Shown piece by piece: positions 8,960 to 31,515 of a stretch of 64,000 bases of DNA. This DNA comes from Pseudanabaena sp. PCC 6802 (GTDB lineage: Bacteria > Cyanobacteriota > Cyanobacteriia > Pseudanabaenales > Pseudanabaenaceae). The position numbers and the translations under genes were made by a program. Under the pieces are notes generated by a model. That model saw nothing but the letters and a program-made list of their open reading frames with translations. It ran no database searches and had not been told where the DNA came from. The first letter of the stretch is position 1. Each line of letters begins with the position of its first letter. The stretch is from positions 674,278 to 738,277 of the forward strand of contig NZ_KB235910.1 in the NCBI RefSeq assembly GCF_000332175.1, read 5' to 3'.

Positions 8960-9700
8960 TCATTGTACCTGCCTAAGTCCTGATTCTGGTGTAGAGAGTT
9001 GTGCAACCATTTCTGTACGCGACGAAACTCTAAGTTTACGAAACATTCGCTTCAAAGCCTGCTTGACAGAATTCTCGGTAATCCAAAGTTCATTCCCGAT
9101 CTCTGCGTTGGTTCGCCCTGAAGCAACCAAGTTGGCAATCTGTAACTCACGCGGCGTTAATCGATGGGTACTAAACGGTTGGTGCGGAGGTTTTGAAGTT
9201 ACGCTTTGTGCGAATCGCACGGTTGCAGTCCACGCGGATAGATGCAAACAAATAGCACTCAGATCGGCTAAATCTTGGGCATCAAAGGCAGGCATCGATC
9301 TTTCGCGGGTACATCCCACTGAACCAACGACTTGACCGCGCTCGACGATCGGTCCTGCCATCACATGCCAGTGATCCGGACGCGGACAGATTAATTTCCA
9401 AGTCTTGGGCGTGGTCACCAATCCTTCATGGACGGGAGTATGACGTTCTGCGATATAACGCGCCACAGGATTATGTTCCAAAGATAGGGCAAGGTTGAGA
9501 ATGGGTTGAAACTTTCGATCGGCTTTTAGCCGATCGAAGAAAAAGATGCCCGAGCGCTTGGCAGCAAAGTACTCCCCAAGTTTTGGTGCAAGGTGCGATC
9601 GCAAATCATCCTCATCCTTTGCTTGATAAATTTCTTCAAATAACAGCTTCAAGGAAACGATCATAGTGGTGAAAAGAGTACTCGATCGAGTACTAGGCAT
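8960..9700 (-). CDS. GAF-LuxR-type transcriptional regulator
   Basis: The 246-residue protein has an N-terminal GAF-like region (about 20-160) and a C-terminal LuxR helix-turn-helix (about 182-237). The HTH contains LTPRELQIANLVASGRTNAE then IGNELWITENSVKQALKRMF. There is no receiver domain, so the GAF part probably senses a ligand or redox state directly. It is divergent from the PfpI-like gene, and the gap holds two inverted repeats. ATG at 9700 or an internal ATG at 9664 (MIVSLKLLFEEIY) could be the start. The second would place the perfect palindrome at 9,677-9,694 outside the gene. Neither has a clear ribosome site. Confidence 0.82.
   Translation of the reverse strand: MPSTRSSTLFTTMIVSLKLLFEEIYQAKDEDDLRSHLAPKLGEYFAAKRSGIFFFDRLKADRKFQPILNLALSLEHNPVARYIAERHTPVHEGLVTTPKTWKLICPRPDHWHVMAGPIVERGQVVGSVGCTRERSMPAFDAQDLADLSAICLHLSAWTATVRFAQSVTSKPPHQPFSTHRLTPRELQIANLVASGRTNAEIGNELWITENSVKQALKRMFRKLRVSSRTEMVAQLSTPESGLRQVQ
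9677..9694. promoter_or_regulatory. Perfect 18-bp palindrome near the start of the GAF-LuxR gene
   Basis: AGTACTCGATCGAGTACT is an exact palindrome. It lies either in the first codons of the regulator (start 9700) or directly upstream of it (start 9664). Symmetric sites of this size beside a LuxR-type regulator often serve as operators. That role is inference here. Confidence 0.4.
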
Positions 9701-29718: not shown

Positions 29719-29747
29719 TTGACATGATTGTAACTGCGATCTATTAT
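29719..29747 (+). promoter_or_regulatory. Sigma70-type promoter of the candidate small RNA
   Basis: TTGACA at 29,719-29,724 is followed by a 17-base spacer and TATTAT at 29,742-29,747. This is nearly ideal for a housekeeping promoter. It lies in a gap with no plus-strand gene downstream. Confidence 0.6.
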
Positions 29748-29754
29748 ATTGATG

Positions 29755-29878
29755 GATGCAGCAGACATGTCAAGTACATGACATCCCGTTACCTTTTAAG
29801 GTCGAGGCAAGCCCGGTAAAGACGTTCTGAATACCAAAAATAAAATTTTGGCGAAGGCTCCTTAAGGAGCCTTTGTTA
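29755..29878 (+). ncRNA. Candidate stand-alone small RNA, about 124 nt
   Basis: It is preceded by a strong promoter and closed by a perfect terminator (29,851-29,873). Inside are hairpin ATGTCA-AGTACA-TGACAT and a stem TTACC/GGTAA around ACCTTTTAAGGT. No open frame with a ribosome site is visible. The next gene downstream is convergent, so this is not a leader. I see no match to Yfr1, Yfr2, 6S, tmRNA or a known riboswitch, though I could not search. Confidence 0.5.
29851..29873 (+). terminator. Rho-independent terminator
   Basis: AAGGCTCCTTAAGGAGCCTT is perfectly self-complementary, a stem of up to ten base pairs with almost no loop (about eight pairs if a TTAA loop is left open), followed by TGTT. 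It ends the candidate small RNA and may also stop the convergent minus-strand gene from the other side. Confidence 0.8.
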
Positions 29879-29879
29879 T

Positions 29880-30437
29880 TCACAGCTTTGGCAATTTCTT
29901 ATTTTTCAATAAATTATTAGCGATGACGAAAAAGCTGACTTTCTTTATTCTGCCTATACCTTCATATCTAGGATAAGCACTTTGTACATGTAATCTCAGC
30001 TTTTTACTTTCCTTGAATACACTGAAAACAACGAAATAATCAACCTCAATACCCTTCGAGTCTACAACTTTTGTAGTTGCAAATTTGCCATAACCTGCAT
30101 GACATACTAAAGTTGTGCTCTCCCCTAGCGCTTTGATAATGTTAGGTAACTGTTTCGAGAGGTGATATCTCTCAAAATTAAAAGGTCTAGTCTCTCTTGG
30201 TGAACTATACGTCAATAGCTGTAGCTCTTCTTCAGTAAGCTCACTCGATTCTTTGGTGAAGCAGTGCAAGCTGTAGGTCACTATAAATTTGTAGGTAATT
30301 GGGTTTTTCTCATCTCTATCATCAAGATATTCAGCCCAGTGGGCATTTAGATGCGATAAATCGTAAATTACTTCCCTTAATGTAAAATTTCTCCAACATT
30401 TAATTTCTGTTACGACAGTATTAAATCTTTCACCCAT
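29880..30437 (-). CDS. Hypothetical protein, 185 residues
   Basis: A soluble protein with no transmembrane segment, AT-rich compared with neighbours. Features include FTLREVIYDLSHLNAHWAEY, ETRPFNFERYHLSKQLPNII and a basic tail KNKKLPKL. I do not recognise a named family, but the E-T-R-x-F-x-F-x-R-Y pattern looks conserved rather than random. It lies 15 bases after a smaller, disrupted gene on the same strand, so it could be the second gene of a two-gene unit. Confidence 0.6.
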   Translation of the reverse strand: MGERFNTVVTEIKCWRNFTLREVIYDLSHLNAHWAEYLDDRDEKNPITYKFIVTYSLHCFTKESSELTEEELQLLTYSSPRETRPFNFERYHLSKQLPNIIKALGESTTLVCHAGYGKFATTKVVDSKGIEVDYFVVFSVFKESKKLRLHVQSAYPRYEGIGRIKKVSFFVIANNLLKNKKLPKL

Positions 30438-30840: not shown

Positions 30841-31515
30841 ATGAACGCATCGAAGCAAAATAATATGGAATCGCAAGTTTATCAGGGGCAGTTTGGCGAG
30901 TTCACAATTACCGGTAGCGATCGCCGCGATGTTGTCATCTATCGAGCGGCATTGGCAGTAGCTGCACTCTGTTTTAGCAGTGGTGGCCTGCTCTTTCTGT
31001 GGCAAGCTGATGGGGTAGATGTAAATGTATTGCATTTACTGACCTGGTTGTATGGTCTATTTTGCATTGCTTTAGGGGTAGCGCTGGCAAAAATTCATAT
31101 CTACTTAGCGGCTCTGCATAAAGCACTCCAGGCATTTTGGCTAATTGGGTGTATATCGTCGATCGCTCTCGTTTTTACTAATCGCGAACCTTTGGCGATC
31201 GCTGTCTACCAAAATCCCACGATGCTTTTGGGCATAGGGTTCACGTTTGCAGCGCTCACGGGAATTTATTTTAAGGAAGCATTTTGCTTCAATCGCTCTG
31301 AAACCAAGATTCTCACCGTCCTCGTACCATTCTTGCTGCTAGGACATATGAGCGGGATGCTTTCAGTAACTTGGGAACGCATACTCTTAGCCACCTGGAT
31401 CGCTCTATTTTTGGTCTTTGCTTTCCGTAAAGTAATTCAGGCAATTCCACCAGATATTGGCGATAAATCGGTTTTCGCCTACTTGAAGGAACAAAAAAAC
31501 TCGGTTGCGACCTAA
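30841..31515 (+). CDS. Integral membrane protein, DUF2301 family
   Basis: The 224-residue protein has about six hydrophobic segments from residue 42 onward. GIYFKEAFCFNRSETKILTV is the conserved DUF2301 stretch. The short N-terminal cytoplasmic part is YQGQFGEFTITGSDRRDVVI. The function is unknown, though it is common in cyanobacteria. The start is ATG 30841, and an internal ATG (MESQVYQGQ) 24 bases on is also plausible. A family A repeat follows the gene. Confidence 0.8.
   Translation: MNASKQNNMESQVYQGQFGEFTITGSDRRDVVIYRAALAVAALCFSSGGLLFLWQADGVDVNVLHLLTWLYGLFCIALGVALAKIHIYLAALHKALQAFWLIGCISSIALVFTNREPLAIAVYQNPTMLLGIGFTFAALTGIYFKEAFCFNRSETKILTVLVPFLLLGHMSGMLSVTWERILLATWIALFLVFAFRKVIQAIPPDIGDKSVFAYLKEQKNSVAT

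Follow-up and report, generated by a model that had tools for sequence, protein, structure and literature searches.

An sroH-related RNA and its convergent yjaZ neighbour as a candidate RNA antitoxin and toxin in Cyanobacteria and Gammaproteobacteria

The window, a stretch of 64,000 nucleotides from contig NZ_KB235910.1 of Pseudanabaena sp. PCC 6802, contains a short segment that an earlier note, made from the sequence alone, described as a free-standing small RNA with its own promoter and terminator and took to be an unnamed regulatory RNA. The question that this locus raises is what the RNA is and what it acts on. The features of the locus are collected in Table 1.

The promoter proposed in the earlier note was confirmed. 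It matched the sigma-70-like pattern at 11 of 12 positions and was the top promoter-like match in the 6 kb scanned (27-33 kb of the window). Sites of such quality numbered 21 against 12.6 expected, so that one such site alone may well occur by chance. In relatives, the mean best match upstream of the RNA was 9.4 of 12, compared with 6.9 in shuffled sequences, and a match of at least 10 of 12 was present in 54% of relatives but in only 1.4% of shuffles. The terminator stem, with the perfect arms AAGGCTCC/GGAGCCTT, was also as described and covaries among relatives. The match of our covariance model R1, which was built from relatives with the window sequence included, ended at 29877. The RNA folded better than shuffled sequences (z = -2.5; 3 of 200 shuffles were as good and 197 were worse). 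Singly, neither the promoter match nor the fold score is decisive; both are conserved in relatives. As the earlier note had said, no + strand gene follows directly, the next one starting at 30841. Conservation in relatives, covariation and homology to the expressed SroH of E. coli give good support to a non-coding RNA gene that has a promoter and a terminator of its own. In this sense the RNA is free-standing, but it is also one half of an RNA-protein module: 3 nt past its end, on the opposite strand, lies the stop codon of a convergent 185-aa open reading frame that had been overlooked.

Table 1. Features of the RNA-yjaZ locus, in positions of the window
Feature	Position	Strand	Evidence
Sigma-70-like promoter of the RNA; TTGACA 29719-29724, 17-nt spacer, TATTAT 29742-29747	29719..29747	+	sequence match; kept in relatives
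SroH-like RNA gene (candidate RNA antitoxin)	29754..29877	+	Rfam sroH 78.9 bits; model R1 131 bits, match ending at 29877; single copy in the genome
Helix P1 (29754-29758 with 29782-29786) enclosing hairpin P2 (29766-29770 with 29776-29780)	29754..29786	+	covariation
Pseudoknot, CAGA 29762-29765 with TCTG 29826-29829, crossing P1 and P3	29762..29829	+	compensatory changes
Helix P3 (29787-29790 with 29820, 29821, 29823, 29824) enclosing P4 (ACC 29791-29793 with GGT 29800-29802)	29787..29824	+	covariation
Hairpin P6, CCAAAA/TTTTGG	29834..29851	+	covariation
Intrinsic terminator, stem 29854-29861/29866-29873	29854..29877	+	sequence; covariation
yjaZ/htrC homologue, 185 aa, convergent to the RNA (candidate RNase toxin)	29880..30437	-	PRK09717 E 2e-45; AlphaFold pLDDT 91; RelE/HigB-like neighbours; dN/dS

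The RNA is conserved in relatives, and the covariation check that the earlier note had proposed revealed an elaborate fold. Among 76 model hits, a set that includes 4 weak off-module matches, 31 of the 36 base pairs showed changes on both sides. Paired cells amounted to 96.3%, pseudoknot included, whereas control alignments with slid partners gave at most 47%. The pseudoknot joins the loop of P1 to a point 3′ of P3, and it was examined with an alignment model built without it. Its compensatory variants (CAGG/CCTG in the class B loci defined below, CGGA/TCCG in L095 and CCGA/TCGG in L087) indicate that the RNA is folded and pseudoknotted.

The earlier note had also reported no match to known cyanobacterial RNAs and suggested a search of Rfam. 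Rfam indeed gave no match to known cyanobacterial RNAs, but under permissive filters the RNA matched E. coli sroH (RF00372) over the full length of the model (1-161; 78.9 bits, E = 8e-19). This score is 1.1 bits below the gathering threshold of 80 bits, placing the RNA just outside formal membership, and at Rfam's own cut-offs the window yields only a tRNA. Enterobacterial plasmid copies pass the gathering score with 87-144 bits. Taken together, the sequence matches support homology between the window RNA and sroH. In E. coli, sroH lies behind yjaZ, convergent with it, between thiH and rpoC. Because this layout is the same as that of the window, the window RNA is half of a two-gene unit common to two phyla.

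We distinguished class A, the sroH-type loci, from class B, comprising loci of Pseudomonas, Pantoea and Klebsiella plasmids, whose RNA has no Rfam entry. Both follow a common plan, in which P1 encloses P2 and P3 encloses P4, followed by P6 and the terminator, with the pseudoknot. RNA models built from one class detect the other at low E-values, and the two classes constitute one family of cyanobacterial and gammaproteobacterial RNAs. The YjaZ protein tree splits into classes A and B as well, with full support. One copy (L063, 5538-5721) is longer by about 55 bases between its P6 region and terminator, where a small repeat may have been inserted. A weak second model match of 15-17 bits occurs upstream of E. 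coli yjaZ, at the end of rpoC (L031, 3838-3957; also L076, L077 and L084), and is probably due to chance.

The RNA was adjacent to YjaZ in 73 of the 73 intact yjaZ copies examined (66 distinct after duplicate fetches were dropped), and none of these 73 lacked it. In 70 of them the two genes were convergent; in the other 3, from a Vibrio plasmid (L047), Thiomargarita (L075) and Marinicella (L093), they were in tandem on one strand, in the order RNA, terminator, yjaZ. Constant adjacency across two gene orders points to a functional link between RNA and protein and rules out cis-antisense pairing as a general mechanism. A type I toxin-antitoxin system, in which the RNA would be antisense to the 3′ end of the convergent yjaZ transcript, is suggested by the short distance from the RNA end to the yjaZ stop codon, as read-through transcripts would overlap. 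Such pairing is impossible in the three tandem copies, and covariation of the pseudoknot implies a folded RNA; we therefore consider a type I system very improbable.

The constant pairing also bears on the reading of the RNA as an ordinary trans-acting regulator, which was that of the earlier note and is the usual description of SroH in E. coli; YjaZ would then be a mere neighbour or an RNA chaperone. SroH is expressed in EHEC with low ribosome coverage (PMC5331693), is raised in an rsd mutant (PMC5982834) and is the least conserved of the sRNAs common to E. coli and Klebsiella (PMC3415461). It binds kbl mRNA in vitro, its one EMSA-validated target (PMC6172242), a result that favours ordinary regulation and counts against an antitoxin. 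On the other hand, adjacency to YjaZ has been kept over two phyla and two gene orders, and it is the internal structure rather than an exposed seed region that is conserved. The first interpretation thus holds as far as a conserved non-coding RNA is concerned, but the RNA is a relative of sroH, and given its constant pairing with YjaZ we regard a trans-acting riboregulator as quite unlikely. Our literature search, which covered open-access journal papers, found nothing linking SroH to YjaZ or to toxin-antitoxin function.

Loss of the two partners was asymmetric. A complete RNA accompanied a broken YjaZ at L032, L042, L043, L044, L050, L097 and L116; L089 and L107 were also scored as broken by our script, but in them a stop occurs only where the match ends or close to it, and they were not relied on. 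In E. coli O157:H7 (L140, 3158-3601), yjaZ has a 71-bp deletion that takes out the segment with the conserved Arg and His, whereas identity in the RNA region is 99.6%. Of the 17 RNA-bearing cyanobacterial genomes, 7 had no recognisable YjaZ. At L124 and L125, the sequence following the RNA may, on our own reading, be left over from the 3′ end of yjaZ. That the protein is lost while the RNA survives, and never the other way round, is the pattern predicted for a toxin and its antitoxin. Decay of some solitary RNAs counts against this reading: L136 has no terminator and L132 a weakened P2. Separately, we observed that the solitary RNAs L124, L126 and L127, from different cyanobacterial genera, have XRE-ImmA/IrrE-like and PIN/VapBC-like genes nearby, in what looks like a toxin-antitoxin cluster, and that the solitary RNA of L132 (1501-1628) lies directly upstream of a C5-type DNA methyltransferase gene.

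The RNA was also present without its partner in viruses. YjaZ was found in 0 of 50,697 phage records. The cultured Vibrio phage 1.262.O carries the RNA alone (L342, 3870-3993), between a small gene and the terminase gene; its RNA is 80% identical to that of the window, and its P1 is CGATG/CATCG, as in the Vibrio plasmid copy L047. Four phage tRNA genes lie within the same 9 kb. Among viral contigs, L313, L321, L343 and L348 had the RNA without YjaZ in the stretch examined, and L345, L346, L347 and L349 had the full pair. One of the former (L321, class B RNA at 9082-9214) has genes for Zot-like and secretin-like proteins, as filamentous phages do. When viral contigs were scanned with a short RNA motif, most hits were due to chance and 0 passed the model; a stricter pattern was then used. 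The phage PhiTE carries and expands a pseudo-ToxI to defeat ToxIN (PMC3475682). In light of this precedent, a phage copy of the RNA alone naturally points to an RNA antitoxin, and we infer by analogy that the phage-borne RNAs may act as decoy antitoxins.

These solitary RNAs bear on two further explanations. In the first, YjaZ would be an effector active only when bound to the RNA, which would serve as cofactor or scaffold, for example in a defence or RNA-processing ribonucleoprotein. This would account for the elaborate conserved fold and for the absence of YjaZ without RNA. It would also lead one to expect decay of the RNA after YjaZ has gone, yet well-preserved RNAs persist beside broken or deleted yjaZ; moreover, the RNA stands alone on a lytic phage, and no variable guide-like segment is evident. 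We consider an RNA-dependent effector unlikely. In the second, the roles would be reversed, with a toxic RNA restrained by YjaZ. RNA toxins exist in principle, but an RNA that is frequent without YjaZ, both on phages and in genomes, makes this the most improbable of the explanations considered. The antisense, RNA-toxin and riboregulator readings are accordingly ranked below that of an RNA antitoxin.

YjaZ relatives were encoded on 560 plasmid records, from Klebsiella, Enterobacter, Serratia, Pseudomonas, Escherichia, Vibrio, Thiothrix and others. Across 84,980 species genomes, scanning gave 63 loci, confined to Cyanobacteria and Gammaproteobacteria. YjaZ relatives occurred in 11 of 386 sampled cyanobacterial genomes, the full-length ones being 59-78% identical to the window protein, and the RNA occurred in 17 of 373. 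YjaZ was not found in the 37 other genomes of the window's family, and a DNA search of 38 genomes of that family gave no homologous locus, the best matches being short and chance-like. Among 369 genomes of the class around the Aeromonas copy, the RNA was present in that Aeromonas genome alone, so that a broad sample shows it to be rare. The whole unit was present in 3,693 of 5,426 E. coli genomes and otherwise nearly always missing entire, with the empty site seen in strain HH45; a cassette that is mobile or easily lost behaves in this way. The RNA-YjaZ pair moves as a unit between phyla and on plasmids and prophages. The window copy itself lies outside any defence island, which counts against the antitoxin reading, and its thioesterase-DUF2301 neighbourhood was not kept in the fetched flanks of family relatives, so that this comparison showed no empty site for the window itself. 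Two kinds of plasmid copy deserve mention. L049 and related plasmids pair a class B RNA with a YjaZ that is divergent (about 30% identity); matches of this kind account for most of the 373 YjaZ-matching Klebsiella plasmid records. Tiny ColE1-type plasmids (L032, which is the 2,462-bp plasmid pB1022, L050 and L054) carry little beyond replication functions and the RNA-YjaZ module.

The window protein had a sole family match, to NCBIfam PRK09717 (YjaZ; 155 bits over residues 10-184). This score is below the equivalog cut-off of 324 bits and marks the protein as a homologue rather than a certified equivalog; it is 49% identical to E. coli YjaZ. Searches of Pfam, PHROGs and PDB sequences gave nothing specific and no RelE/BECR family match, and the PADLOC defence models did not match YjaZ. 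AlphaFold gave confident models both for the window YjaZ and for a class B YjaZ (pLDDT 91, pTM 0.88). For both, the best-aligned solved structures were the RNase toxins HigB2, RelE and MqsR, and for the window model also YoeB and BrnT. The RelE-type neighbours were weak for both models (Z 3.0-4.5, rmsd about 3-5 Å), and Foldseek gave no E-value below 0.1; BFVD hits were left out of the comparison. MazF was absent from the neighbour lists, in which all Z were below 5, and this still allows a MazF fold. Such low scores do not prove kinship with RelE; the appearance of one functional group at the top of two lists weakly suggests it.

Conserved His, Arg and Glu residues are typical of RNases of the RelE/HigB/YoeB/MqsR type, and the same holds for YjaZ. 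Residues L30, H58, F60, R90, R148 and H150 are invariant, with S153 conserved at 98% and E143 at 85%, and this set would be compatible with an acid-base RNase site. Judging from the models, YjaZ may be a RelE/BECR-superfamily-like ribonuclease. With dN/dS of 0.14-0.16 against Planktothrix-type relatives and 0.03-0.26 between close pairs where computable, the protein is under purifying selection. Against a toxin counts that E. coli htrC was first described as required for growth at high temperature, not as a toxin.

The explanation that we favour as probable is that the RNA is the antitoxin and the convergent yjaZ the toxin of a type-III-like module. It draws on the full-length sroH match beside a YjaZ homologue and the adjacency in all intact copies; on retention of the RNA where YjaZ is broken or deleted, and its presence alone on phage and viral contigs; on covariation, pseudoknot included, together with the all-or-none presence in E. 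coli; and on the top structural rank of RelE, HigB, YoeB and MqsR with the invariant residues and purifying selection. That YjaZ is toxic and bound by the RNA is what we infer from this body of evidence. The folded RNA would be made in excess from its own strong promoter and would bind YjaZ, masking the active site and so inhibiting the protein directly, as type III antitoxins do. Once transcription ceases, or the plasmid is lost, or a phage takes control of the cell, the RNA would run out, and the freed YjaZ would cut cellular RNA and stop growth; RNA-only phage copies would serve as decoy antitoxins. More tentatively, and with slightly more doubt than belief, we propose that SroH-YjaZ represents an undescribed class of RNA antitoxin and RNase toxin, which plasmids and prophages have carried between Cyanobacteria and Gammaproteobacteria and which E. 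coli K-12 also possesses. In this class, one pseudoknotted RNA would block a RelE-superfamily-like RNase directly, and several phages would escape the toxin by carrying the RNA alone as a decoy.

If true, this would assign a role to SroH, an unexplained sRNA of the best-studied bacterium, and to its neighbour YjaZ/HtrC, and would add a probable new toxin fold and gene layout to the RNA-neutralised toxins. The phage-borne RNA-only copies allow a direct test of RNA-based counter-defence, and since several hundred Klebsiella and related plasmids carry one divergent branch of the family, the module may also aid plasmid persistence.

Among known systems, E. coli sroH and yjaZ/htrC are the closest, being alike in the RNA core over its full length and in the convergent position of the RNA behind yjaZ. 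Rfam models sroH as almost structureless, with the terminator alone paired, whereas the family described here has P1-P4, P6 and a pseudoknot. Type III systems (ToxIN, CptIN, TenpIN/AbiQ) are similar in placing a pseudoknotted non-coding RNA beside a small protein, here, according to the models, a probable endoribonuclease. Their order of RNA, terminator and toxin recurs in 3 of our 73 intact copies, and the RNA-only phage copies resemble the pseudo-ToxI of PhiTE. By definition, a type III operon has a pseudoknot RNA of tandem repeats, followed downstream by the gene for a MazF-fold RNase (PMC5086642). In contrast, each locus here has a single RNA unit, about 125 nt long, where type III has short tandem repeats, and the genes are mostly convergent (70 of 73) with separate promoters instead of one operon and promoter. 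As these two defining features were tested and found absent, we call the module type-III-like and do not file it as type III. The toxins may also differ, type III toxins having the MazF/Kid fold (PMC5086642) and the YjaZ models weakly resembling RelE/HigB. The type II toxins RelE, HigB, YoeB and MqsR are top structural neighbours of both YjaZ models, but YjaZ has twice their length, shows no detectable similarity to them in sequence and lacks an attached protein antitoxin gene. In the type-III-like pair of AbiF and the RNA antitoxin RCd22, a single structured non-coding RNA neutralises the adjacent toxin by direct binding (PMC12373285). AbiF is an Abi_2 protein linked to Cas13 and unrelated to YjaZ, and we saw no sequence kinship between the two systems; it demonstrates that an adjacent structured RNA can directly neutralise a toxin other than MazF (PMC12373285).
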